Part shown: positions 7,303-33,047 of the stretch, piece after piece
Numbering within the stretch: position 1 is the stretch's first letter
How the letters are laid out: each line of letters begins with the position of its first letter
The notes under the pieces: model-generated
Told to the model about the DNA's origin: nothing
The model's database searches: none
The model's input: the letters and a program-made list of their open reading frames with translations, nothing else
Origin: Candidatus Saccharimonadota bacterium
GTDB taxonomy: Bacteria > Patescibacteriota > Saccharimonadia > Saccharimonadales > VXPC01
Length of the DNA stretch: 34,866 nt
Assembly: GCA_026707815.1 (NCBI GenBank)
Contig: JAPOWB010000004.1
Span: 1 to 34,866, forward strand
Direction: 5' to 3'
Translations under genes and position numbers: made by a program

Positions 7303-7491
7303 CTAATAACCTAGTAGAACTCTAAAATAATGGACTAAATAACCTCGAATACTCCTAGGATAAGAAGTCACCAACGAGAACTTTTGCTTAAGAATGCCAA
7401 AGACAGCTTCGATTTTAGAACGCTCTCTTAAAAGCTGTCTATCTTCTAAGGTCGTTAAGCTTAGTCTTTTGGCTGAAATGAGCTGAAGCAA
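7303..7491 (-). pseudogene. IS982-like transposase C-terminal remnant
   Basis: LLRERSKIEAVFGILKQKFSLVTSYPRSIRGYLVHYFRVLLGY resembles the IS982-type C-terminus; N-terminal and catalytic part absent. Confidence 0.65.
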
Positions 7492-7582
7492 TAATTTTTA
7501 GACCCTACTTTTTAACAATGGTTCGAGTTAGCAGCGCTTTTGTGCTAGTATATGGCTAAAATAGCTGGAGAGGAATCAGACC

Positions 7583-7903
7583 ATGACTAAAAGAGAAATC
7601 AAGATGCTCGGGGACTTGCTTGAGTACGAAATCTTCCATCTGGAAGGCGTTGTCAATGCTTTCAATTCTAAAGAAAGCAATAAGAGTCTGCGTGATCTGA
7701 AATCAATCCGCAAAGTTTTGCAAAAGCCTGATGTCCGAATCGGTGGCTCTCTGAACAAAGACCAGAAAGAGATTCTACTCAACCTGATCAAGCAAGCCCA
7801 ACTGGAAGCTCAACGCATCTTGGACAAACAAGAGAAGATTAGAAAGATCCAGCAGGATTCGAGCATCTTAAACAGACTAGAAAAATCCCTGCACGCCGCC
7901 TAG
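7583..7903 (+). CDS. small helical hypothetical protein, first gene of GC-richer cassette
   Basis: ORF track; 9 bp upstream of the DUF3800 ORF, same strand. Confidence 0.65.
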   Translation: MTKREIKMLGDLLEYEIFHLEGVVNAFNSKESNKSLRDLKSIRKVLQKPDVRIGGSLNKDQKEILLNLIKQAQLEAQRILDKQEKIRKIQQDSSILNRLEKSLHAA

Positions 7904-7912
7904 GAGCAGTCA

Positions 7913-8656
7913 ATGTTCCTAGTTATCGATGAGAGCAAGAGTGGGAGTAGCACGACTGTCGGTTGCCTGTGTCTGCCTGATTCAGACTTCGCCAAAGCCG
8001 AAGCTATGGTTTTGGATGCCAGAATCCGCGAAAGGTGCTGGGGTGAGATTAAATGGCAGGATGCCCGGGGCGATTATGCCTCCAAATATACTAGGATCCT
8101 TGCCGATTATTTCAATTGCTCAGACAGGGTAACTTTTCATTCGCTGACTTATAAAAAACTGGGCTCGCAAGCTAAATCTCGGCTCAAGCGTTTGTTTCCG
8201 GACAGATCGTGGGACGAAGAGAGGGTTCTAGACCGCCGGACTTACCAGCTGATTCGCACCGTCATTTGGAAGTGCAGGCAAGCCGGGTATGATTCCAACT
8301 ATTACATCATCGGCGACCGGCGTGGCAGTGATGACAACTCGGTCTACCGGACAATCGGCGACTTATTGGCCAAAGACAGCAAAGTTAGGATTAAGCCGCA
8401 GTTTTGCTCAACAGGCACCTCAGCCGTACTGGGATCACTGCAAATTGCTGACCTGTGCGCCGGAGCTATCGCCTCCTGTTATGAAGCCAGCTATCACCAA
8501 CTCGACACGCAGCAGATTAAAGCAAAGTTAATCGAGATAAACAAGAATGTAGAACTCACTTATTCTCCATCTCGGCTACCCAAGTTACATGACCACCGCC
8601 TGCACCATTGGCTATTCGACGAAACCAGAAGCAGATTTTACGGACTAATCAAATAG
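7913..8656 (+). CDS. DUF3800-domain protein
   Basis: MFLVIDESKSG…GEIKWQDARGDYASKY…GSLQIADLCAGAIAS motifs typical of DUF3800. Confidence 0.8.
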   Translation: MFLVIDESKSGSSTTVGCLCLPDSDFAKAEAMVLDARIRERCWGEIKWQDARGDYASKYTRILADYFNCSDRVTFHSLTYKKLGSQAKSRLKRLFPDRSWDEERVLDRRTYQLIRTVIWKCRQAGYDSNYYIIGDRRGSDDNSVYRTIGDLLAKDSKVRIKPQFCSTGTSAVLGSLQIADLCAGAIASCYEASYHQLDTQQIKAKLIEINKNVELTYSPSRLPKLHDHRLHHWLFDETRSRFYGLIK

Positions 8657-8658
8657 CC

Positions 8659-10182
8659 TTAGCCCTCTGAGGTAACACTTGGAGTCACCAGATAATCTAT
8701 AATTCTGGTCATAATCTCCTCAAAAGACTCTTCGTGTTCAGTCTTCAGATTCCCCAACTTATCAAAACAACCCCTAGGTCCGTCTCTTTTACACTTGCAA
8801 TCACACTTTTTGTCGCATTTGGAGCATCTGTTCTTGTCTCTGATGTCTTCGGTAGGCAACTGAAAGAATCTAAATCCCTCTTTTCTTAGAAACTTTTTCC
8901 GAGCTTTCGCTATAGCCTCCGATTCGCTAGCGCCACCGTCATATAATGCTGCCACCCTCCCTATTCTCAAATCTTTAGCCATCGCCAGAAGTTTCTCTAT
9001 CTTTTGGAAACCACCCGCACCATACCCGAATATATTGAGGGTTATACCTCCTCGGTTTTTAGCCAACCATTTTCGTATTAGCCCGACATCTTCCTGACCC
9101 TCTACAAAGAGAATGCTATTGGCAAACATTATTTCTTTGGCCACCGTATCCATGAGTTGTGGTTTCATCCACTCTTCTTTAATCAGCGAGGGGGTATATT
9201 TGGCAGGCTTTTTGAGTTCCGAAATCACGCATCTCCCATCATCGATCTTATTAAGCCTGACGAATTTTGCACCATTCTTATAATCATTCCAGTTCACGAA
9301 ATAAGGGGAATGGGTGCAGACTATTATTTGTTTGTTTGCCGATGACTCCGAGATCAGTCTGGCCAATCCGGACTGGGCTACTGGATGCAAAGACAGTTCA
9401 GGTTCATCTATGATTAGCACGGGAACTTCATCGGGCTTATCATCCATGAGGTGTAGGCAAATTCGGAAAAGCGACAATGTGCCGTCACCGAGCAAATCAG
9501 CCCTATGTGCGCCCTTACTGGTTACATATTCCAAATAATCTTGGTTGTCTGACCCGGTGTCTATATCCCAATCCGTGAAACCTGGGATTAAGGTTTTTAG
9601 CATATCGTCCAGTCTTTGCTTTTTATCTTTATCGTCACGTATACTACCCAGCTTTCTGAATGTCAGACTATCGCCCGTGGCTTGACGCAGTTTCATGTAG
9701 TTCGTAACCTGATTCCCGTATTCCGGGAAATCCCGAGTTCCATACCGCGATAAGTCATCGACAATAGACCAGTGTCTCCTTGAGGCAACAGCCTCCAAGT
9801 TCGGTGCTGGAATGTTAGCAATCTCGCCATTGTCATTGTAAATTGTATAGTCTCGGTATGACCCCTTGCCCTGATTGGTAATCGCTACCCTGTATCTACC
9901 ATGAGAAGAATTTTCAAAGCATATATTTATCTTTGGTTTATTGTTCTCGTGTCTATCTGGCTGTCTAAATTTTTGTAAGTTATCTTGCCGCATTTGCAAC
10001 AGCGCCTCTAGTACTGATGTCTTACCAGCATTGTTCGGACCCACGACTAAGGTTAGTCCACTCCCTGGCTTGCCGGCAGGTATTCCGAAGTTAAACGATT
10101 GCTCGTCAAAGAAACCCCTGTAGTGTTCGATTTTAAGTTTTGTCAGTCGTTGTTTTTCAGAATCTTGCATAAAGAGTACCAC
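8659..10182 (-). CDS. OLD-family AAA ATPase with TOPRIM-like domain and Cys cluster
   Basis: Walker A VVGPNNAGKTSVLEALL; signature/Walker B …LLGDGTLSLFRICLHLM…VLIIDEPELSLHP; ILFVEGQEDVGLI TOPRIM-like; CSKCDKKCDCKCKRDGPRGC. Confidence 0.88.
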   Translation of the reverse strand: MVLFMQDSEKQRLTKLKIEHYRGFFDEQSFNFGIPAGKPGSGLTLVVGPNNAGKTSVLEALLQMRQDNLQKFRQPDRHENNKPKINICFENSSHGRYRVAITNQGKGSYRDYTIYNDNGEIANIPAPNLEAVASRRHWSIVDDLSRYGTRDFPEYGNQVTNYMKLRQATGDSLTFRKLGSIRDDKDKKQRLDDMLKTLIPGFTDWDIDTGSDNQDYLEYVTSKGAHRADLLGDGTLSLFRICLHLMDDKPDEVPVLIIDEPELSLHPVAQSGLARLISESSANKQIIVCTHSPYFVNWNDYKNGAKFVRLNKIDDGRCVISELKKPAKYTPSLIKEEWMKPQLMDTVAKEIMFANSILFVEGQEDVGLIRKWLAKNRGGITLNIFGYGAGGFQKIEKLLAMAKDLRIGRVAALYDGGASESEAIAKARKKFLRKEGFRFFQLPTEDIRDKNRCSKCDKKCDCKCKRDGPRGCFDKLGNLKTEHEESFEEIMTRIIDYLVTPSVTSEG

Positions 10183-10199
10183 CTAGTATTCTACCATAG

Positions 10200-10610
10200 T
10201 TGAACAACTCAAAGATAAGCCGACAAATCAGCACCAAAGAAGCTCAACTTGTAAAAGCCGTTGAACTCAGACTCAATGATGAAATAGATGAAAGTGAGCT
10301 TAAAACTATTAGAATTAAAAACAAAGACAGCCTAGACAAACTTCAATCACAGCTTGATTCTATCAATAAACTTTTAAGCCAAGAATCTAATCAAGTCTTA
10401 GATTTGGCTTCAATTATAAATGAATGCATTCACCTCTATAAATTAGCCAACAAACAAGAAAAAGGTTCGATACTTAAAATTGTCTGTTCGAACCTCTTTT
10501 TTGACGGCAAAAATATTAATTTACATCTGTCAAATCCCTTCAATTTGCTACAAGAATGTCATACTAGTTCACTATGGCGACTCCAAGTGAATCTATTTCG
10601 AACACTCTGA
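10200..10610 (+). pseudogene. serine recombinase C-terminal remnant
   Basis: Coiled coil plus …NECIHLYKLANKQEKGSILKIVCSNLFFDGKNINLHLSNPFNLL resembles the C-terminus of large serine recombinases; no resolvase domain. Confidence 0.7.
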
Positions 10611-12054: not shown

Positions 12055-14289
12055 ATGAAACTAAATAAAATACAGTACATAAACTTTGCCAGTTTTAAGG
12101 ATTTTGAATGTAGCAAAGACACTAAAGAATTCAGAAATATAAATATCATTTTGGGATGGAACGGCTCGGGTAAGACAACTCTATCTAAGGTTTTACGTTC
12201 CCTAGAATTAGAATTGCCCGAGGAAGGTATGAGCTTCCAATTAAAAATAGATTCAAGAAGATACACCGAATCTAACATGCCCCCGAATTCAACAAGCAAG
12301 ATAAGAGTGTTCAATAATGATTATGTGAAAAAGGTATTAGCATCTAATTCAGCAATCCCCTATGTATTTTACATCGGAGAAGAGGGTGTTGATTATGCCG
12401 AAAAAGAGCAAGAGTTACAAAGTAAGCAAGATAACTTAGACGGGCTGAAGTGTGATGCTGATAATCATGACCGTATAGCGACGGACACAGCTGGAAGAAT
12501 AAGAGATGTCGCAGGAATTAATATAATTCCTCGACCTCTTTCCGATGGTAAATATGGCGATTATGACAAAAGGGATTTTATATACCGCATTAAGTTTTTC
12601 GAGAATGAATTTGAAAAAGAAGGGTCGAAAATGCTCCCGGCGCAATACATAGAGAAAACCTATTTATTAACAGAGGATGAAGTAAAGAATTTCAGGAAGC
12701 AAATAAACAATTCTGAGCAGTTTAACAAAGTTGAACAGAAAACTAAGGAGATAATCGGCTGGATTAAAGATAATGAAGAACCCCTAAATTCCCTTTTGCA
12801 AAAGACCCCCGAACGGAGATCATCACAACGCATTGAAGATATGGATGCGGCGGAACAAGAATGGGTGCAATTAGGTGTAGGCATTCATTTCCCTGATAAT
12901 GACAACGATCCCAGGACAAAATGCTTGTTTTGTGCTTCGGATATTAAAAACGAAGAGGAGCTTCGTCTACACTTTTCTAAAGAAGTACTTGAGTTATCAG
13001 GCAGGTTGGAGGGCTTCGAAAAACAGATTGCCGAACATCAACAAACGCTAAATAATTTATCCGTTATAGATGCCGACCAGAAGACAACCATTAAAACTTT
13101 GAATGACCATCTTGATTCAGTACTTGAAAAAGTAAAAGAAAAAAGTGAACAAATTCCTGCTGCTTTAGACCCCTTGGAGCCATTCAATCCTAAACACCTT
13201 ACAAAGACCAATATTCCCGAAACAAGAACAGCGAACAGAGAACAATTTTGGGCTCAAAAGATTGAGTGTCATTATGTCGCGAAAGTAGTCGGGAAATATT
13301 TAGACGAAAAACAGCAATACGAAAAATGTGAAGAAGAACGCGGGGAATTATCACAAGAGATAGAAAAGTTAAACGAAGAGGTAGCTGAACTTAGGCTTAA
13401 AGCTCAGAATAAGCATGAAGCAGCGCAAAAGTTGAGTGATACATTTAAAGCTATTTTCCCATACGGACAAATAACAATACAGGATAATGATGAAAATACA
13501 GGGTACAAGCTCACAAGGGGTGGTGTTCCTTGCGATTTATCCAGTTTAAGCGAAGGAGAACACAATTTGCTGGCTCTGATGTATTTCTTAATTGCATTGA
13601 ACGATGAGAATCGTAAATTAGATGATAATGCCCTAATCGTCATTGACGACCCTATATCCAGCCTAGATAAGAACTCCATCTACCAAATTTTCTCTCTCAT
13701 AGTAGATGAAATTGAGAAGAATAAAGATAGCCGACAATACATTCTAATGACACATAGCTTAGATTTTCTGGGACATCTGCTTGAGCATTACAGAAAGAAA
13801 ATCAACGAACAGGAAGAAGAAAAGCAGACTGTCTGCCTCTACAACGTATCTTTATCTTCCGAGGGCTCGGAGATTACAAATATGAACAGTTTGTTACAGA
13901 AATATAAGTCTGATTACTATTATTTGTTTGACATCTTAAGGCGGAAGTTAAAAGGTTGTCCACCCGAAGAGAACTACTTAATAGCTAATCTTTTGAGAAG
14001 ATGGCTGGAAACTTTTCTCAACTTCAAATTTTCGTCTGACGGGAATTTCCAAGGTCTTTTAAGTAAAGCTCATAAAACAAGCGGGCTAGATCAAGACTCC
14101 AACTATCAGATAACAGCGTTGCGCAGATTCCTTGATTCTGGCTCCCATGGACTACCAGACACAGAAACATCAAACAACAGTCTCTTTGAGGATGATGTGA
14201 CCTCAATGATAAAGATGGCTTTTAAGCTGGTTGAAAAGACAGACAAGGATCACTTCTCTAAATTAAAGAAGGTGCTAGGTGAAACTTGA
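12055..14289 (+). CDS. AAA_13-type ATPase, RloC/PrrC-like putative anticodon nuclease
   Basis: Walker A LGWNGSGKTTLSKVL; IRVFNNDYVKKVL…YVFYIGEEGVDYAEKE; CLFC; SLSEGEHNLLALMYFL; ALIVIDDPISSLD; C-terminal LLRRWLETFLNFKF … SGSHG. Confidence 0.8.
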   Translation: MKLNKIQYINFASFKDFECSKDTKEFRNINIILGWNGSGKTTLSKVLRSLELELPEEGMSFQLKIDSRRYTESNMPPNSTSKIRVFNNDYVKKVLASNSAIPYVFYIGEEGVDYAEKEQELQSKQDNLDGLKCDADNHDRIATDTAGRIRDVAGINIIPRPLSDGKYGDYDKRDFIYRIKFFENEFEKEGSKMLPAQYIEKTYLLTEDEVKNFRKQINNSEQFNKVEQKTKEIIGWIKDNEEPLNSLLQKTPERRSSQRIEDMDAAEQEWVQLGVGIHFPDNDNDPRTKCLFCASDIKNEEELRLHFSKEVLELSGRLEGFEKQIAEHQQTLNNLSVIDADQKTTIKTLNDHLDSVLEKVKEKSEQIPAALDPLEPFNPKHLTKTNIPETRTANREQFWAQKIECHYVAKVVGKYLDEKQQYEKCEEERGELSQEIEKLNEEVAELRLKAQNKHEAAQKLSDTFKAIFPYGQITIQDNDENTGYKLTRGGVPCDLSSLSEGEHNLLALMYFLIALNDENRKLDDNALIVIDDPISSLDKNSIYQIFSLIVDEIEKNKDSRQYILMTHSLDFLGHLLEHYRKKINEQEEEKQTVCLYNVSLSSEGSEITNMNSLLQKYKSDYYYLFDILRRKLKGCPPEENYLIANLLRRWLETFLNFKFSSDGNFQGLLSKAHKTSGLDQDSNYQITALRRFLDSGSHGLPDTETSNNSLFEDDVTSMIKMAFKLVEKTDKDHFSKLKKVLGET

Positions 14290-17910: not shown

Positions 17911-19076
17911 TGTATAAATAGTCTTTGCATTAACCCTTTTTTGTATAGCTTCCAATATATGATATTGGTCTTTGCAATTGATGCTATTTTGTCCAAAATA
18001 TTTAACACTTGCTCTATTCTTTCTTGCTCTTTAATTGCTGGTATTGAAATCTGCAAATATTGGTATTCTGAAATCCAATGTCTTTTATGTCCTCGTGGTT
18101 TGTATTGTATTTGAGTTAGTAGCTCGTATATAACCTTAGGTCGAATGTTTTTATTAAATTTTAAAATTTTCATAGCAGAGGATTTAACCTTGAATTCAAA
18201 ATTTACAAATTGTTTAGATGTGGTAAAGTCATCAAATATTACAACCGGTAGCTTTGTAAATCTGTTGTCAGATTCATTAGTATAGCCTAGTATGAAAGTT
18301 TTGCCAGCAGTTAGAATCGGCATAGAACCCTTCTCACAATATTGCTTACAAGTGGTGATATATCTAGTTGGTTGTTCATAAGTTAATAACTCTTTTAATC
18401 TATAGGTTTGCCAGTTGGGGTAGTTATACCCCCCCCCGTCCTTGAATCTAATCTTTTTATTAAAGATTTGTTGCATTAACCCTTTTTTATATTGCTCAAA
18501 CTGATATTTTTGTTGCTCTAAGAGATTAAGCTTGTTATTCACAGTATCAAAAAAATCAGCTATCTTCTCTTGCTCTTCAATACAGGGTATTTTTAGTTTA
18601 AAATCTGCTAGGGTACTAAAATCAAGAGAATCCCTCACTGATCCTAAAGTGCCAGTTTTTATTAAATGCTGAAAATAATGAGTTTTTAAAATATGTTTTA
18701 AAAAATTTTCATTTAAATTATTACTACATCTAAATACGATATACATAGGACTAATAATTCCAATATCAAATTCTGTTAGATTGGCAATAGAACCCACATT
18801 GATTCTCGATGGATTGTAAGCGAAATCACCCCTCTCAACAATTTTATAATTCAAGGTATCTCTACTTGCAATTCTGTGATTATTAAAATATTCAGATTGT
18901 TCTATAAATCCATGTAAATTGCTAACAGTTAATAGCCTATTTATTTCGCCGTTTTTGTTGCGAATAGATTTATGAGTAATGAGTTCTCCCAGTCTAATTT
19001 TTTCCCATTCAGGGTAATCCTTACCATTCTTGTCCTTAAATCTTAAATGAGGAATATATTCAGAAGATATTTTCAA
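17907..19076 (-). CDS. hsdS: type I R-M specificity subunit (HsdS), two TRDs
   Basis: RLGELITH…, EQEKIADFFDTVNNKLNLLEQQKYQFEQYKKGLMQQIF…, EQERIEQVLNILDKIASIAK…KKGLMQRLF. Confidence 0.93.
   Translation of the reverse strand: MKISSEYIPHLRFKDKNGKDYPEWEKIRLGELITHKSIRNKNGEINRLLTVSNLHGFIEQSEYFNNHRIASRDTLNYKIVERGDFAYNPSRINVGSIANLTEFDIGIISPMYIVFRCSNNLNENFLKHILKTHYFQHLIKTGTLGSVRDSLDFSTLADFKLKIPCIEEQEKIADFFDTVNNKLNLLEQQKYQFEQYKKGLMQQIFNKKIRFKDGGGYNYPNWQTYRLKELLTYEQPTRYITTCKQYCEKGSMPILTAGKTFILGYTNESDNRFTKLPVVIFDDFTTSKQFVNFEFKVKSSAMKILKFNKNIRPKVIYELLTQIQYKPRGHKRHWISEYQYLQISIPAIKEQERIEQVLNILDKIASIAKTNIIYWKLYKKGLMQRLFIQ
18429..18437. repeat. C9/G9 homopolymer in hsdS between the two TRD halves (in frame)
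   Basis: Encodes KDGGGYNY on the minus strand; gac GGG GGG GGG tat. Confidence 0.95.
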
Positions 19077-20614
19077 TTCCTAACTCCTTTGTATATTGAT
19101 TAATTTGAGCCTGAATCTTAATTCTTTCTTTTTCTAAATCTCTAATATTGTCAGATATTTCATCAATATCAATAAATTTCTCTTCTTCAAATGTATCTAC
19201 ATAAATGGGAATATTTAGCATATAATTATTTCTTTCAATATCGTCTAATTTGACAAGATGGCTAAACATTTTTATTTCAGATCTTAATCTATATGTTTGA
19301 ATAATTTTATCTATATGTCTAACCAACAATTTATTTTTCTTTTTAGTTTTTTCAAATTCTTTAGAAGCATCAATAAATATTATATTGTCATCGGTTTCAC
19401 GACATTTTTTAAAAATCAAAATACAAGCAGAAATATTTGTTCCATAGAAAAGATTAGGAGGTAAACCAATCACAGCATCTAGATAATTTTTTGTTTCAAT
19501 TAAATATCTTCGTATATGTGCTTCGCCCCCCCCCCCGAGACAAAGCACCATGAGACATAATAGTTGCCATAACTCCATTTTCATCTAAGGAATGTATCAT
19601 GTGTTGTATAAAAGCATAATCTGCATATTTTTTGGAAGCCAATCTACCATATTGTGAAAATCTATCATCACTTTTAAAAAGTGGGTTAGCTGACCAATCT
19701 GCTGAAAATGGAGGATTTGCTACCACCGCTTCAAATTTTCTATCTTTGTGCATGGGTCTTTCTAGGGTATCAGCTTGTTTAATATCAAACTGATTATAAT
19801 GAATATCATGAAGAATCATATTCATTCTAGCTAAGTTATAAGTTGTCAGCACTTTCTCTTGACCAACGTATTCACCCACCTCCTTAACTTCCTTAGCTAC
19901 ACGCAATAATAATGATCCTGAACCGCAAGTTGGATCATAAACGTTTTTTAATTTGTTTTTACCAGTTGTTACAATTTTTGCCAATACTTTTGAAACTTCT
20001 TGTGGGGTATAAAATTCTCCAGCTTTCTTGCCTGCTCCAGCAGCAAACTGACTAATTAAATATTCATATGCATCTCCTAAGATGTCGATACTGGAGTTTT
20101 CAAGTTTAAAGTCGATGTCATCTAAATGAAGCAGTATTTTAACAATTAAGTTATTTTTCTCATTTTCAGTTTTACCTAATTTAGGAGAAGATAAATTTAA
20201 TCCTTCAAATAAATTATCAAAATCATCTTCACTATTTGTCCCCATGGTGCTTGATTCGATGTTTTTGAGGATTTTTTGTAAATCTTCTAAGATAAAATTA
20301 TCCTTTCCTTTTTCAGCAATGGCATGAAAAAGTTCGGATGGTTTCAAAAAATATCCCAAAGAATCAAGAGTCTCGATTTTAATTTCTTCCAATATATTCT
20401 TGCCTTGCTCAGCATTTTCATCTACATCTTCGTAATTGCAATTATCTTGTTGGAGTAATTCATTAGCTTTGATATGTAATTTTTCAGATAGGTACTTATA
20501 AAAGATAAAACCAAGAATATAATCACGAAATTCATCTGCATTCATCTGACCCCTGAGAGTGTTAGCTATATTCCAAAGTTGTTTTTCTAGCTGGTGTTTT
20601 TGATCTTCAGACAT
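19060..20614 (-). pseudogene. hsdM: type I R-M modification subunit (HsdM), split into two ORFs by a G11 tract (possibly phase-off)
   Basis: N part 19496-20614 (…ILGDAYEYLISQFAAGAGKKAGEFYTPQEVSKVLAKI…DPTCGSGSLLLRV…VVANPPFSADWS…HGALSRGGG) continues in another frame in 19060-19584 (GGGEAHIRRYLIETKNYLDAVIGLPPNLFYGTNISACILIFKKCRE). Confidence 0.95.
19526..19536. repeat. C11/G11 homopolymer inside hsdM
   Basis: Direct reading: cttcgCCCCCCCCCCCgagac. Confidence 0.95.
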
Positions 20615-28045: not shown

Positions 28046-29179
28046 ATGCAAGATTCCATCCAAACAAAGTATCATAAGCAAGGTGTCTCATCTGTGAATC
28101 ATATTATTCTTGATGAAACACCTACAACTCGTCTAATCTTTTATCCCAAAGTACACGATAGCGGCGTGAGAGGAGATATAGTGCGCCAAAAAATCGGTTC
28201 TGATGGGCAATGGAAAGACAGAAACGACATTGATTTCAGATCATTAGAGGCAGACAAGGGTGTCAAAATTCCAATTAGCACCAAGGCGACTGATTTATTA
28301 TTTAACAAGCTTAGATCTTTATATGAAATTGTTAAAAAAGGAGCGCCTCGCTCTAACAAAGAACTTATAGTTACAGAATCAGATAAAGCTTTGACTATAG
28401 ATGACAGAAATAAACAAAGAATTCTTCAGCAAATTATAAATCAAAATTATTCTGAGTCATTTTGGGAGGAATTATCAAAAACAAGTCCTAAGCTTGCGAC
28501 GCAATTCTCTATAGATCGAATCCAATTAGATAGACAAGAAGTAATTAAAGAGTTCAAAACATCATTAATTCAGCATGCTAATGAAGAAAAATATTGGCAA
28601 AAATTTTTTGAGGATAATCCTTGGATGCTACAAGTAGCATTTGGGGCTTCTATATTTATGTTGGCGGGGGAAACATATTTAGGTGGTAAATCAACTAAAG
28701 GCAAGCAGGGGCGTGGTGGCGTCTCAACTGATTTTCTTTTCGCTGATGAAAGTACTAAAAGCTTTGCAGTTATGGAAATCAAAAAACCAAAATCTAGTTT
28801 AATGTTAAAATCTGCATATCGAGGCAAACTAGGCTCTAATCTCAAAAATGAAATTTATAGTTTAGGTTCTGAGCTTTCAGGAGCCATTGTTCAGGCACAA
28901 AGCCAATTAACAGTGGCAATCGAAAATTTTCAATCTTTATTAGGAGATAATGCTGAATTTTCTTACAAGATTAATCTTATAGATCCTAAAGCTATTCTAG
29001 TTATTGGCATGTCAGGTGAATTACAGCAACAAAGACAAAAAGATTCGTTTAATCAATTTCGTTCAGGGCTTCATAGCCCAATAATAGTTACTTTTGATGA
29101 ACTATATCATAGGTTAAGTCAAATATATGGAATCAGTTCTCAGGATGAAGATATAGACTCAAATGATATGCCCTTTTAA
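28046..29179 (+). CDS. sduA: Shedu-type immune protein (DUF4263 nuclease)
   Basis: EKYWQKFFEDNPWMLQVAFG…STDFLFADESTKSFAVMEIKKPKSSLM (PD-(D/E)xK-type D…ExK) and IVQAQSQLTVAIENF… typical of DUF4263. Confidence 0.85.
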   Translation: MQDSIQTKYHKQGVSSVNHIILDETPTTRLIFYPKVHDSGVRGDIVRQKIGSDGQWKDRNDIDFRSLEADKGVKIPISTKATDLLFNKLRSLYEIVKKGAPRSNKELIVTESDKALTIDDRNKQRILQQIINQNYSESFWEELSKTSPKLATQFSIDRIQLDRQEVIKEFKTSLIQHANEEKYWQKFFEDNPWMLQVAFGASIFMLAGETYLGGKSTKGKQGRGGVSTDFLFADESTKSFAVMEIKKPKSSLMLKSAYRGKLGSNLKNEIYSLGSELSGAIVQAQSQLTVAIENFQSLLGDNAEFSYKINLIDPKAILVIGMSGELQQQRQKDSFNQFRSGLHSPIIVTFDELYHRLSQIYGISSQDEDIDSNDMPF

Positions 29180-29193
29180 TTATAATCATTGAT

Positions 29194-29502
29194 ATGGCTA
29201 GAAGATACAATAAACGAAGCAATTATCATAGAATCAAGAAGAATTATAAACGACATAGAAACAGTAGGCAAAAGGATAATTTAGAAGACTTTCTATCTAA
29301 TAAAGATGTTTTAGTATTCATATCTAAAATTATAATTACTATACTTCTCATTATTACTGTAGTCGGGGGTGTTTTGTTCGCTGTTTATAAAATTTGGCAT
29401 CAAGCCGAATGGCTTAAATTAACAAAGATTATCTTAACGGCAGTTACTGTGCTGGCTGGTGCTAGCATTTTATACGGAGCATACCATTTTTTGATTAGTT
29501 GA
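29194..29502 (+). CDS. small basic membrane protein
   Basis: Arg/Lys-rich N-terminus plus two TM segments. Confidence 0.6.
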   Translation: MARRYNKRSNYHRIKKNYKRHRNSRQKDNLEDFLSNKDVLVFISKIIITILLIITVVGGVLFAVYKIWHQAEWLKLTKIILTAVTVLAGASILYGAYHFLIS

Positions 29503-29580
29503 TTAATATAATGATTTGTTAACATATCATGCTAGTTTAATGCTTCAGAAATTTATTAATTTGCTAGAATATTAAGTGTA

Positions 29581-30168
29581 ATGAAAATAGAAAAGTATAC
29601 AGTTAATCTAGATGGCAATGATTTAGTCATTAAAGTTGCTCATCTAGATCAGAGTGATGGTCAAATCTTTAAAGAATTATTTGATTTATGGAAGAAGCTC
29701 AACGACGGACTTAAGCAATATGGTCGGATGGCGACCTTGCCAGAAGTCATCTCGGAAGGTATGTTTTGTGTTTTCACAGGTTCAGCGAGATATCAGGAAA
29801 GAGTTAGTGGCAAGAGTTCTGTATCTTTTGATGCTATTAATACGCAGAACAATCGTAAAGAACAAATTAAAGCTTCCAGCGTTGAAGAAGATCTAACTTC
29901 TTTCAGCCCGAATTCTAGCTGGGATGATTTGTATTTTATGGATTTTTATAACGGTGGTAAATTAGATGGTTCATTTAATTTATACCAAATCCCTGATCAA
30001 TATATTCGATCTATGAAAGTTAGTCAACAGCAAACTTTTAGAGACCAACAAGCTCAAGGCAGAAGACCAAGATTTAGTATTACCAAAGATATTATTAAGA
30101 AGTATGACTTGCAACCAATTGCAACTGACGTACGGGTTTGGCATTCTGATAATCAAAAGCCTGGGTAA
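29581..30168 (+). CDS. Bsp6I-family type II restriction endonuclease
   Basis: Family resemblance (FKELFDLWKKLN…MATLPEVISEGMFCVF…QIKASSVEEDLTSFSPNSSWDDLYFMDF…DGSFNLYQIP) plus adjacent cytosine methyltransferase. Confidence 0.8.
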   Translation: MKIEKYTVNLDGNDLVIKVAHLDQSDGQIFKELFDLWKKLNDGLKQYGRMATLPEVISEGMFCVFTGSARYQERVSGKSSVSFDAINTQNNRKEQIKASSVEEDLTSFSPNSSWDDLYFMDFYNGGKLDGSFNLYQIPDQYIRSMKVSQQQTFRDQQAQGRRPRFSITKDIIKKYDLQPIATDVRVWHSDNQKPG

Positions 30169-31093
30169 TTTGTCTAGCAACAGCCTGAATAACCGGCACA
30201 CTGACACTGTTACCAATCTTGTGATAAAGAACAGTATTACTTAATTCTTCAGGCAAAAGATAGCTATCATCAAAGCCTTGTAATCTAGCACATTCTCTAG
30301 GGGTTAATTTTCTTAGACCTCGTCCATCTTGAACAAGAGGGACATTATGTCCACCCGTTCCCATATTAGCTGTTAAAGTTGGACAAACACCTTTTTGGTT
30401 CTTTCTAATATATTTTCTCCGCCACTGGTAAACTTGTCCTTGCTTGAAAGGATAATCTTTTAAAGATTCAAATAAAGGCTTATCATTGTAATAGTATTTA
30501 TCATCAATATCTTGGGGGTCATCTAACATATCTTGAATGGTTTGAATTAGTGCAATTGGATTAGGAAAGATAAAATTATCGCAAAGCTTTGGATCCTTAA
30601 AACCAACTATGTAAATTCGCTCTCTATTTTGAGGCAGATTACCATACTCCATAGTATTCATCACTTGAGCTTGAAAATGATAGCCGACATCTCTTAAGGC
30701 TTGACTCATAATCCTAAAAGTTCTACCGCCATCATGACTTCTCATATTCTTCACATTTTCTAATAAAAACCCTAGAGGTTTTTTAACTTTTAAAATCTTA
30801 ATAATATTAAAAAATTGATTACCTCTCTCATCCTCTAAACCCTTCTGATAACCAGCAATGGAAAAAGCCTGGCAAGGAAAACCAGCTAATAAAAAATCAA
30901 AATCTGGTAAAGAGTGAGTCTTAATAGCTCCTATATCTCGTGTATCAAGTTGAGCTTCACTAAAATTAGCATCATAAATTAATTTACATCTTACATCGCA
31001 ATCATTAGCAAAGACTGTTTTAAAACCCAGTTGACTAAAACCTAATCTAATACCACCCATACCAGCGTATAAATCAATTGATTTTAAATCCAT
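30095..31093 (-). CDS. dcm: C5 cytosine-specific DNA methyltransferase
   Basis: IDLYAGMGGIRLGF, LLAGFPCQAFSIAGYQKG, FLLENVKNMRSHDGGRTF, RERIYIVGF, KIGNSVSVPVIQAVARQI. Confidence 0.96.
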   Translation of the reverse strand: MDLKSIDLYAGMGGIRLGFSQLGFKTVFANDCDVRCKLIYDANFSEAQLDTRDIGAIKTHSLPDFDFLLAGFPCQAFSIAGYQKGLEDERGNQFFNIIKILKVKKPLGFLLENVKNMRSHDGGRTFRIMSQALRDVGYHFQAQVMNTMEYGNLPQNRERIYIVGFKDPKLCDNFIFPNPIALIQTIQDMLDDPQDIDDKYYYNDKPLFESLKDYPFKQGQVYQWRRKYIRKNQKGVCPTLTANMGTGGHNVPLVQDGRGLRKLTPRECARLQGFDDSYLLPEELSNTVLYHKIGNSVSVPVIQAVARQITQAFDYQNAKPVRQLQLVASHTS

Positions 31094-31224: not shown

Positions 31225-31335
31225 ATGGTCAATAAAAGTAATCAAACTATCAATTTATCTCTAGAAGATAGATTAACTATCTTGGCTGAACTGTTCCTAG
31301 AAATTATTTTAGAGGAAGGTAATGATAGCGACTGA
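31225..31335 (+). CDS. small ORF translationally overlapping the serine recombinase
   Basis: Own translation: MVNKSNQTINLSLEDRLTILAELFLEIILEEGNDSD*; overlaps the recombinase ATG at 31322. Confidence 0.5.
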   Translation: MVNKSNQTINLSLEDRLTILAELFLEIILEEGNDSD

Positions 31336-33013
31336 ATCAACTGCTAAAACTATTAATGCCGTCGGAGCTATCAGAGTTTCCAGCGTTAAACAGGGCTTGA
31401 AAGGTGATTCTCCCGAAGCTCAGAAAGAACAAATTGAACAATTTGCCCAAAACAAGGGTTTCAACATTAAGAAATTCTTTGTTTTCATGGAATCGGCATC
31501 TAAGGAGCAACAACCAATGCAGGAAGCTATAGATTATTGCAAAGATCCCAACAATCAAATTAGTCATTTTATTATTAAATCTATCGATAGATTTACTAGG
31601 GGTGGTTCACTGCCTTACGACTTGCTTAAAAACCAGCTAGAAGCTTCCAAAGTTAAACTAATAGATATCTACGGTATCATTGGCTCAAACCAAGTTAACA
31701 CATTGGAACATTTAGGAGTTGAATATGGGTGGAGTGTTTATTCTCCTTCCAAGAAATCTGAGATCTTAGAGGCTGAAAGATCGAAGGACGAGCTGCGAGA
31801 TATTATGACTCGCATGGTCGGAGCTGAAGTCCGTTATACTAGGCTTGGTTATTGGATGAGAAGACCGCCATATGGCTATGCCAGTCAAAAAAATCACACT
31901 GATCATGGCAAAAGAACTATCTTAGTTCCACATCCTAATGAATCCAAGTTTATTATTGAAATATTCCGACTTCGTTCTTTGGGTCAATACAGCGATAAGG
32001 AAATAGCCAACAAAATTAACGAAATGGGTTATTTAGGACGCATTAACCCATCTAACACTTTAAAACATACTTCCTTGAACGCTTCTAAAGTATGGCGAAT
32101 AGTCAGAAAACCTATTTACACCGGCATTAATAATGAAAAATGGACTAACAACCAACCGGTTAAATGCGTTTTTAAAGGATTAGTGTCTATTGAAACTTTC
32201 AATAAAGCTAATAAGGGCAGAAGAATTATCAGGGAATGCAATGGGGAAATTATAATCAAAGACACAAAAGCTGAGCGTTATTCAACTAGGCAAGGCACTA
32301 GAAGTCAGGATTTCCCTTACAAGCAATTTGTTATGTGTCCCAAATGTGAATTACCCCTTTCTGGTAGCTATTCAAGGGGTAAAAGTGGCAAGCGTTATCC
32401 CGCTTATCACTGCAATCGCCAAGGGCATTATTTCAGAGTCAGAAAAGAAAAATTGGAAGACAAAGTTCATCAACTCATCCTCTCGCTTCAACTATCTCCC
32501 AAACATGTAGATAAGCTAACTCACAGCCTAGAATCAGTTTTCAAGGTTATTGAACAGCAACATCAAGCTAAATTATCTAGCTTAGATGCACGAATCAGTT
32601 CAGTGGAAAATGAAATCAAAGCCATAGTCAATAAATTCAAAATTCTTACCAACCAATTTGCTATCAAACATTTGGAAAATGATTTGGAAGAATTGGAACA
32701 ACGATTGACTCTGCTAAAGAGTAAGAAGCTTGAGCTTGCCAAACAAAAACCCTTCAATTTAGGAGATTTTGCCACTAAGCTTAAACACGTTTTCGAACAC
32801 CTAGACAAGAGCTTCGTCCAACAGATGTCAGAGGCTAAGAAAGCCAAACTTTTCAGCTTGCTTTTCAACAAATTGCCGACTTACGACAAATTAGAGTTTC
32901 GAACACCCAAAGATCCAATTTTTACAGATGTAAATCCGTTATTTTCAATTAAAAATTCTAATTTATTACGTTTGGTGACCCCAGGGGGAATCGAACCCCC
33001 GTTTCCAGGATGA
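31322..33013 (+). CDS. large serine recombinase (resolvase/recombinase/zinc ribbon)
   Basis: AIRVSSVKQGLKGDSPEAQKEQIEQFAQNKGF, SIDRFTRGG, recombinase domain RRPPYGYA…, CPKCELPLSGSYSRGKSGKRYPAYHC zinc ribbon, C-terminal coiled coil. Confidence 0.95.
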   Translation: MIATESTAKTINAVGAIRVSSVKQGLKGDSPEAQKEQIEQFAQNKGFNIKKFFVFMESASKEQQPMQEAIDYCKDPNNQISHFIIKSIDRFTRGGSLPYDLLKNQLEASKVKLIDIYGIIGSNQVNTLEHLGVEYGWSVYSPSKKSEILEAERSKDELRDIMTRMVGAEVRYTRLGYWMRRPPYGYASQKNHTDHGKRTILVPHPNESKFIIEIFRLRSLGQYSDKEIANKINEMGYLGRINPSNTLKHTSLNASKVWRIVRKPIYTGINNEKWTNNQPVKCVFKGLVSIETFNKANKGRRIIRECNGEIIIKDTKAERYSTRQGTRSQDFPYKQFVMCPKCELPLSGSYSRGKSGKRYPAYHCNRQGHYFRVRKEKLEDKVHQLILSLQLSPKHVDKLTHSLESVFKVIEQQHQAKLSSLDARISSVENEIKAIVNKFKILTNQFAIKHLENDLEELEQRLTLLKSKKLELAKQKPFNLGDFATKLKHVFEHLDKSFVQQMSEAKKAKLFSLLFNKLPTYDKLEFRTPKDPIFTDVNPLFSIKNSNLLRLVTPGGIEPPFPG

Positions 33014-33047
33014 AAACCTGATGTCCTAACCACTAGACGATGGGGTC
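32973..33047 (-). tRNA. tRNA-Glu (anticodon TTC), CCA encoded
   Basis: GACCCCA TCGTCTAGTGGTTAGGACA TCAGG TTTTCAT CCTGG AAAC GGGGG TTCGATT CCCCC TGGGGTC A CCA cloverleaf. Confidence 0.96.

Follow-up and report, generated by a model that had tools for sequence, protein, structure and literature searches.

The window analysed here, a stretch of 34,866 nucleotides from a small genome (692 kb, nine contigs), contains three close-set open reading frames (positions 7583–10182) inside a GC-rich block. This block is probably imported cargo in a defence island and would comprise two separate accessory units of putative defence function: a solitary OLD-like gene, and a pair of genes coding for a 106-residue protein and a DUF3800 protein. 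A first-pass annotation of the same DNA had called these three reading frames, which were confirmed with their coordinates and strands. The features of the region are the following.

7303–7491, minus strand: transposase-like fragment of 62 residues at the left edge (DDE_Tnp matches with E 0.003–0.09, all under the Pfam cut-offs).
7505–10195, no strand: GC-richer block, GC 0.454, limits approximate.
7567–7582, plus strand: strong ribosome-binding-site-like sequence (GGAGAGGAATCAGACC) before the 106-residue frame, read from the sequence.
7583–7903, plus strand: orphan protein of 106 residues, helical, encoded by the upstream gene of the pair (open reading frame; GC at codon positions 1/2/3 of 0.51/0.24/0.55, coding-like).
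7913–8656, plus strand: divergent DUF3800 protein of 247 residues, a predicted RNase H-fold nuclease (Pfam, PADLOC and alignment).
8659–10182, minus strand: OLD-like ABC ATPase and TOPRIM protein of 507 residues with a GTG start, convergent and separate (Pfam, PADLOC and homologues).
10209–10610, plus strand: C-terminal part left from a large serine recombinase, at the right edge (alignment with intact recombinases).

The jump in base composition that had first drawn attention to the block is real but not unique. The flanks have GC contents of 0.338 (left) and 0.358 (right), and the same-genome background is 0.363 over about 114 kb, sampled as nine stretches of the source genome of which four were picked for other reasons; GC at least as high as that of the block occurs in 21 of 906 equal-size windows of this sample. 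The T4SS genes in the same window reach 0.42. The packing is as tight as had been claimed, with nine bases between the 106-residue and DUF3800 frames and two between the stop codons of the DUF3800 and ATPase genes. The block had further been described as lying between an IS982 remnant and a beheaded serine recombinase, and only the second of these identifications stands. The recombinase remnant matches intact serine recombinases of 490–505 residues from the same order from about residue 363 onwards, with its start at positions 10209–10215, so that the block adjoins a gene without roughly its N-terminal three quarters; the missing part was not found elsewhere in the window. For the 62-residue fragment, IS982 or any other IS family name is unproven because the Pfam matches are sub-threshold. 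No convincing flanking repeats or block ends were found, and 60 relatives yielded neither a second copy of the block nor an unoccupied site. A foreign origin of the block is supported.

The eight best homologues of the ATPase, at 28–36% identity (L003/L023, L022 and L092–L097), come from another member of the phylum (35%), a plasmid of the actinobacterial genus Hoyosella and six viral contigs. None of the eight has a DUF3800 gene or a relative of the 106-residue protein beside it in the flanking sequence covered, which is partial for some of them (L094 and L096 reach a contig end). Conversely, no OLD gene of the family of the window ATPase lies beside a DUF3800 gene at the sampled DUF3800 loci of the phylum. 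The homologues in L093 and L095 are found among P2-like baseplate and tail genes, together with a tail-completion gene in L093, and that in L094 adjoins a tape-measure gene. In L092 (3358–5359) the OLD homologue is directly preceded by a same-strand open reading frame of 214 residues, the start of which resembles a DNA-binding domain by eye.

Within the block, the ATPase gene is set apart from the pair by its convergent orientation and its lower third-position GC (0.46, versus 0.55 for the 106-residue gene and 0.57 for the DUF3800 gene). The three genes could instead form one defence system, with the OLD-like ATPase as sensor and nuclease, the DUF3800 and 106-residue proteins as effector and regulator, and convergent transcription as the link between them. 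Their common GC-rich block, close spacing and nearly abutting stop codons agree with such an arrangement, and the common block also with joint acquisition, but the lack of either partner at any of the eight homologous loci, the lack of such an OLD gene at the sampled DUF3800 loci of the phylum and the unlike third-position GC of the two units make a single system very improbable. The proposal of a single undescribed three-gene module was therefore not borne out, the search for co-occurrence of the trio in other genomes having been negative.

The first of the two units would be a stand-alone Class 1-like OLD gene. Its earlier assignment as an OLD–TOPRIM ATPase was upheld: the AAA_21/AAA_15 match in Pfam is strong, the OLD-like TOPRIM match (19.1 bits) falls just under the cut-off of 23.2 and the nearest solved structure is 6p74 (E 1.4e-21), the Class 1 OLD protein of T. 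scotoductus (TsOLD; PMC10568477). The PADLOC models AriA, NsnB, Old and GajA all match the protein (among the best 25 of 157 matches), AriA being the top model through a match that spans the general ABC ATPase region. All eight aligned sequences keep the motifs of Walker A, Walker B and the H-loop (GxNN[AS]GK, IDEPELxLHP and THSPY). Judged by the fit to the homologues, which is better than for the GTG, the true start is likely to be an in-frame ATG at 10170. In the eight-row alignment of the ATPase with its homologues Glu361, Asp365, Asp415 and Asp446 are invariant, and the second aspartate of the DxD motif is replaced by glycine (DxG) in the window ATPase, L003 and L092, as read from the alignment and not from a structure. 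The metal-A ligands at the equivalent positions in TsOLD are Glu377, Asp431 and Asp433 (PMC7049728). The window protein thus has Glu361 and Asp415 of this Glu, Asp, Asp set and a glycine in place of the third ligand, and for this reason it is named Class 1-like and is not a proven member of Class 1. A six-cysteine stretch near the C-terminus (residues 453–472) is absent from the aligned homologues.

As judged from the gene order, the ATPase is laid out like the stand-alone OLD proteins of Class 1, P2 Old among them: it is encoded by a single gene with neither a UvrD-like helicase nor a reverse transcriptase as partner, and its neighbours are the convergent DUF3800 gene and the recombinase remnant. 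Like P2 Old and TsOLD, it has an N-terminal ABC ATPase and a C-terminal TOPRIM domain, and its homologues are cargo in tailed-phage contigs; P2 Old, the Class 1 archetype, is itself prophage cargo (PMC10568477), and the P2 hotspot is described in PMC9122126. It differs from Class 1 in the DxG at metal A of its clade, in the cysteine stretch, in being only about 30% identical to its own nearest relatives and in its location in a defence island, a setting that a review describes as unusual for Class 1 (PMC10568477). Gabija also contains an OLD-type ATPase/TOPRIM protein (GajA), but no UvrD-like helicase gene (gajB) is adjacent to the window ATPase, and the GajA models fit it worse than AriA or Old among the best 25 of 157 matches. 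PARIS comprises an AriA ATPase and an AriB TOPRIM protein, separate or fused, and the scanned neighbours in the window match no AriB. By analogy with P2 Old, the ATPase may sense an infection-linked state and then bring about DNA damage or growth arrest.

The second unit would be a two-gene operon of the 106-residue helical protein and the divergent DUF3800 protein. The two genes look like one operon because they share a strand, are separated by the nine-base gap, have ribosome-binding sites and match in third-position GC. An equally long open stretch arose in 54 of 2000 shuffles of the region of the first gene, so its length alone is only modest evidence. Structure prediction gives three helices for the 106-residue protein (mean pLDDT 78, pTM 0.43), for which fold and family searches gave nothing significant and which matches no PADLOC model; searches for relatives in plasmids, phages and 192 genomes of the phylum returned only coiled-coil-like matches. 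A likeness to YchF (E 9e-5 in one genome; E 1.7 in the fold search) was rejected as a chance resemblance between helical hairpins.

That the second gene belongs to the DUF3800 family (PF12686), as first annotated, is confirmed by a Pfam match of 25.8 bits, weak but above the cut-off of 21, and by a firm match to a profile of 26 members from the phylum (E 1.4e-8). The protein also matches the PADLOC candidate PDC-M04A (E 2.8e-9), and Asp6, Glu7, Glu45, Asp135 and Asp180 are conserved in an alignment with PDC-M04A-like proteins. It is very divergent but, by this alignment, appears to retain the acidic set of an RNase H-like site. Unlike other members of the family, it reads IDESKSG where FIDESG is usual, has diverged so far that it cannot be compared directly in sequence with any sampled DUF3800 protein, and has the orphan small protein as its partner. 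A single-sequence structure model has a pLDDT of 35, too low to show the fold. Searches of genome contigs, plasmids, phages, viral contigs (queried with the single sequence and a four-row alignment) and 287 genomes of the phylum and 325 of the order yielded a chance match at most. Such searches are weak at this divergence, as three other DUF3800 genes of the same genome were not linked by them either, so the result means only that the pair has no close relatives. With no relatives of the pair recovered, the link between the two genes rests on one locus. DUF3800 genes elsewhere in the phylum mostly stand alone or are preceded by a variety of genes, so that no general partner is evident. In L078 (1450–3164) a DUF3800 gene lies directly downstream of an open reading frame that resembles a reverse transcriptase by eye.

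The block might also be degenerate cargo, its genes being passive passengers that drift without function between the transposase fragment and the truncated recombinase. Both flanking mobile genes are indeed broken and one TOPRIM metal ligand is replaced. However, the three frames are intact with a coding-like codon-position GC, the ABC motifs and the DUF3800 acidic residues are retained, and the DxG is common to three divergent sequences, the window ATPase and two relatives, and therefore does not reflect recent or local decay. We consider this explanation very unlikely.

DUF3800 has been described as an RNase H fold and is reported beside type V and type VI CRISPR effectors (PMC12669027, PMC10910872). 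On the favoured reading of two independent units, the DUF3800 protein could, to go by its predicted site, be a nuclease with RNA or an RNA/DNA hybrid as its substrate, and the helical protein encoded upstream might bind, restrain or target it in the manner of toxin–antitoxin or small defence pairs. It is possible but unlikely that the pair is a hitherto undescribed two-gene system against phages or plasmids, with the RNase H-like nuclease kept inactive by the helical protein until infection. The two units could also be separate while the pair is neither a defence nor a toxin–antitoxin unit but selfish or RNA-associated, in the way of DUF3800 genes that have structured RNAs linked to them. This is quite unlikely: DUF3800 has been linked to putative noncoding RNAs (PMC10910872) and DUF3800 RNA families exist in Rfam, but none of these families matches here at E values up to 10, and the region upstream of the pair folds as its shuffles do (z 0.00). 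No structured RNA was found at the pair either with the Rfam DUF3800 families or by folding against shuffles.

The defence-island setting proposed for the block is supported, as the window encodes a type I restriction–modification system, a Bsp6I-like restriction enzyme with a C5 methylase, Shedu and a PDC-S06-like ATPase, as well as T4SS genes. By this company, a defence role of the block is plausible. The Shedu gene (SduA) adjoins those of the Bsp6I-like enzyme and the C5 methylase (28046–31093), and an AAA_13 ATPase at 12055–14289 matches the PADLOC candidate PDC-S06 with E 1.3e-102. The type I methylase gene hsdM (19060–20614) is split over two overlapping frames of 372 and 174 residues and may therefore be frameshifted; the hsdS and hsdR frames beside it look intact. 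A gene for a serine recombinase of 563 residues (31322–33047) has its end within a tRNA-Glu gene of the opposite strand (32973–33047), so this element seems to be integrated at the tRNA. Degenerate repeats with 78-base and related spacings (53–2163) code for repeat proteins of RHS/MORN-like type and have inverted copies on the two strands.

As found, the block is an unremarkable assortment of defence-island accessory genes. DUF3800 is an RNase H-fold family that occurs widely and has no known role; a pair that proves functional would offer a compact two-gene setting in which to test DUF3800 toxicity and protection. The DxG clade of lone OLD proteins would be useful for testing the need for the TOPRIM nuclease, a question raised by Escherichia coli YbjD, in which the TOPRIM domain is dispensable for the anti-phage effect (PMC13261556).
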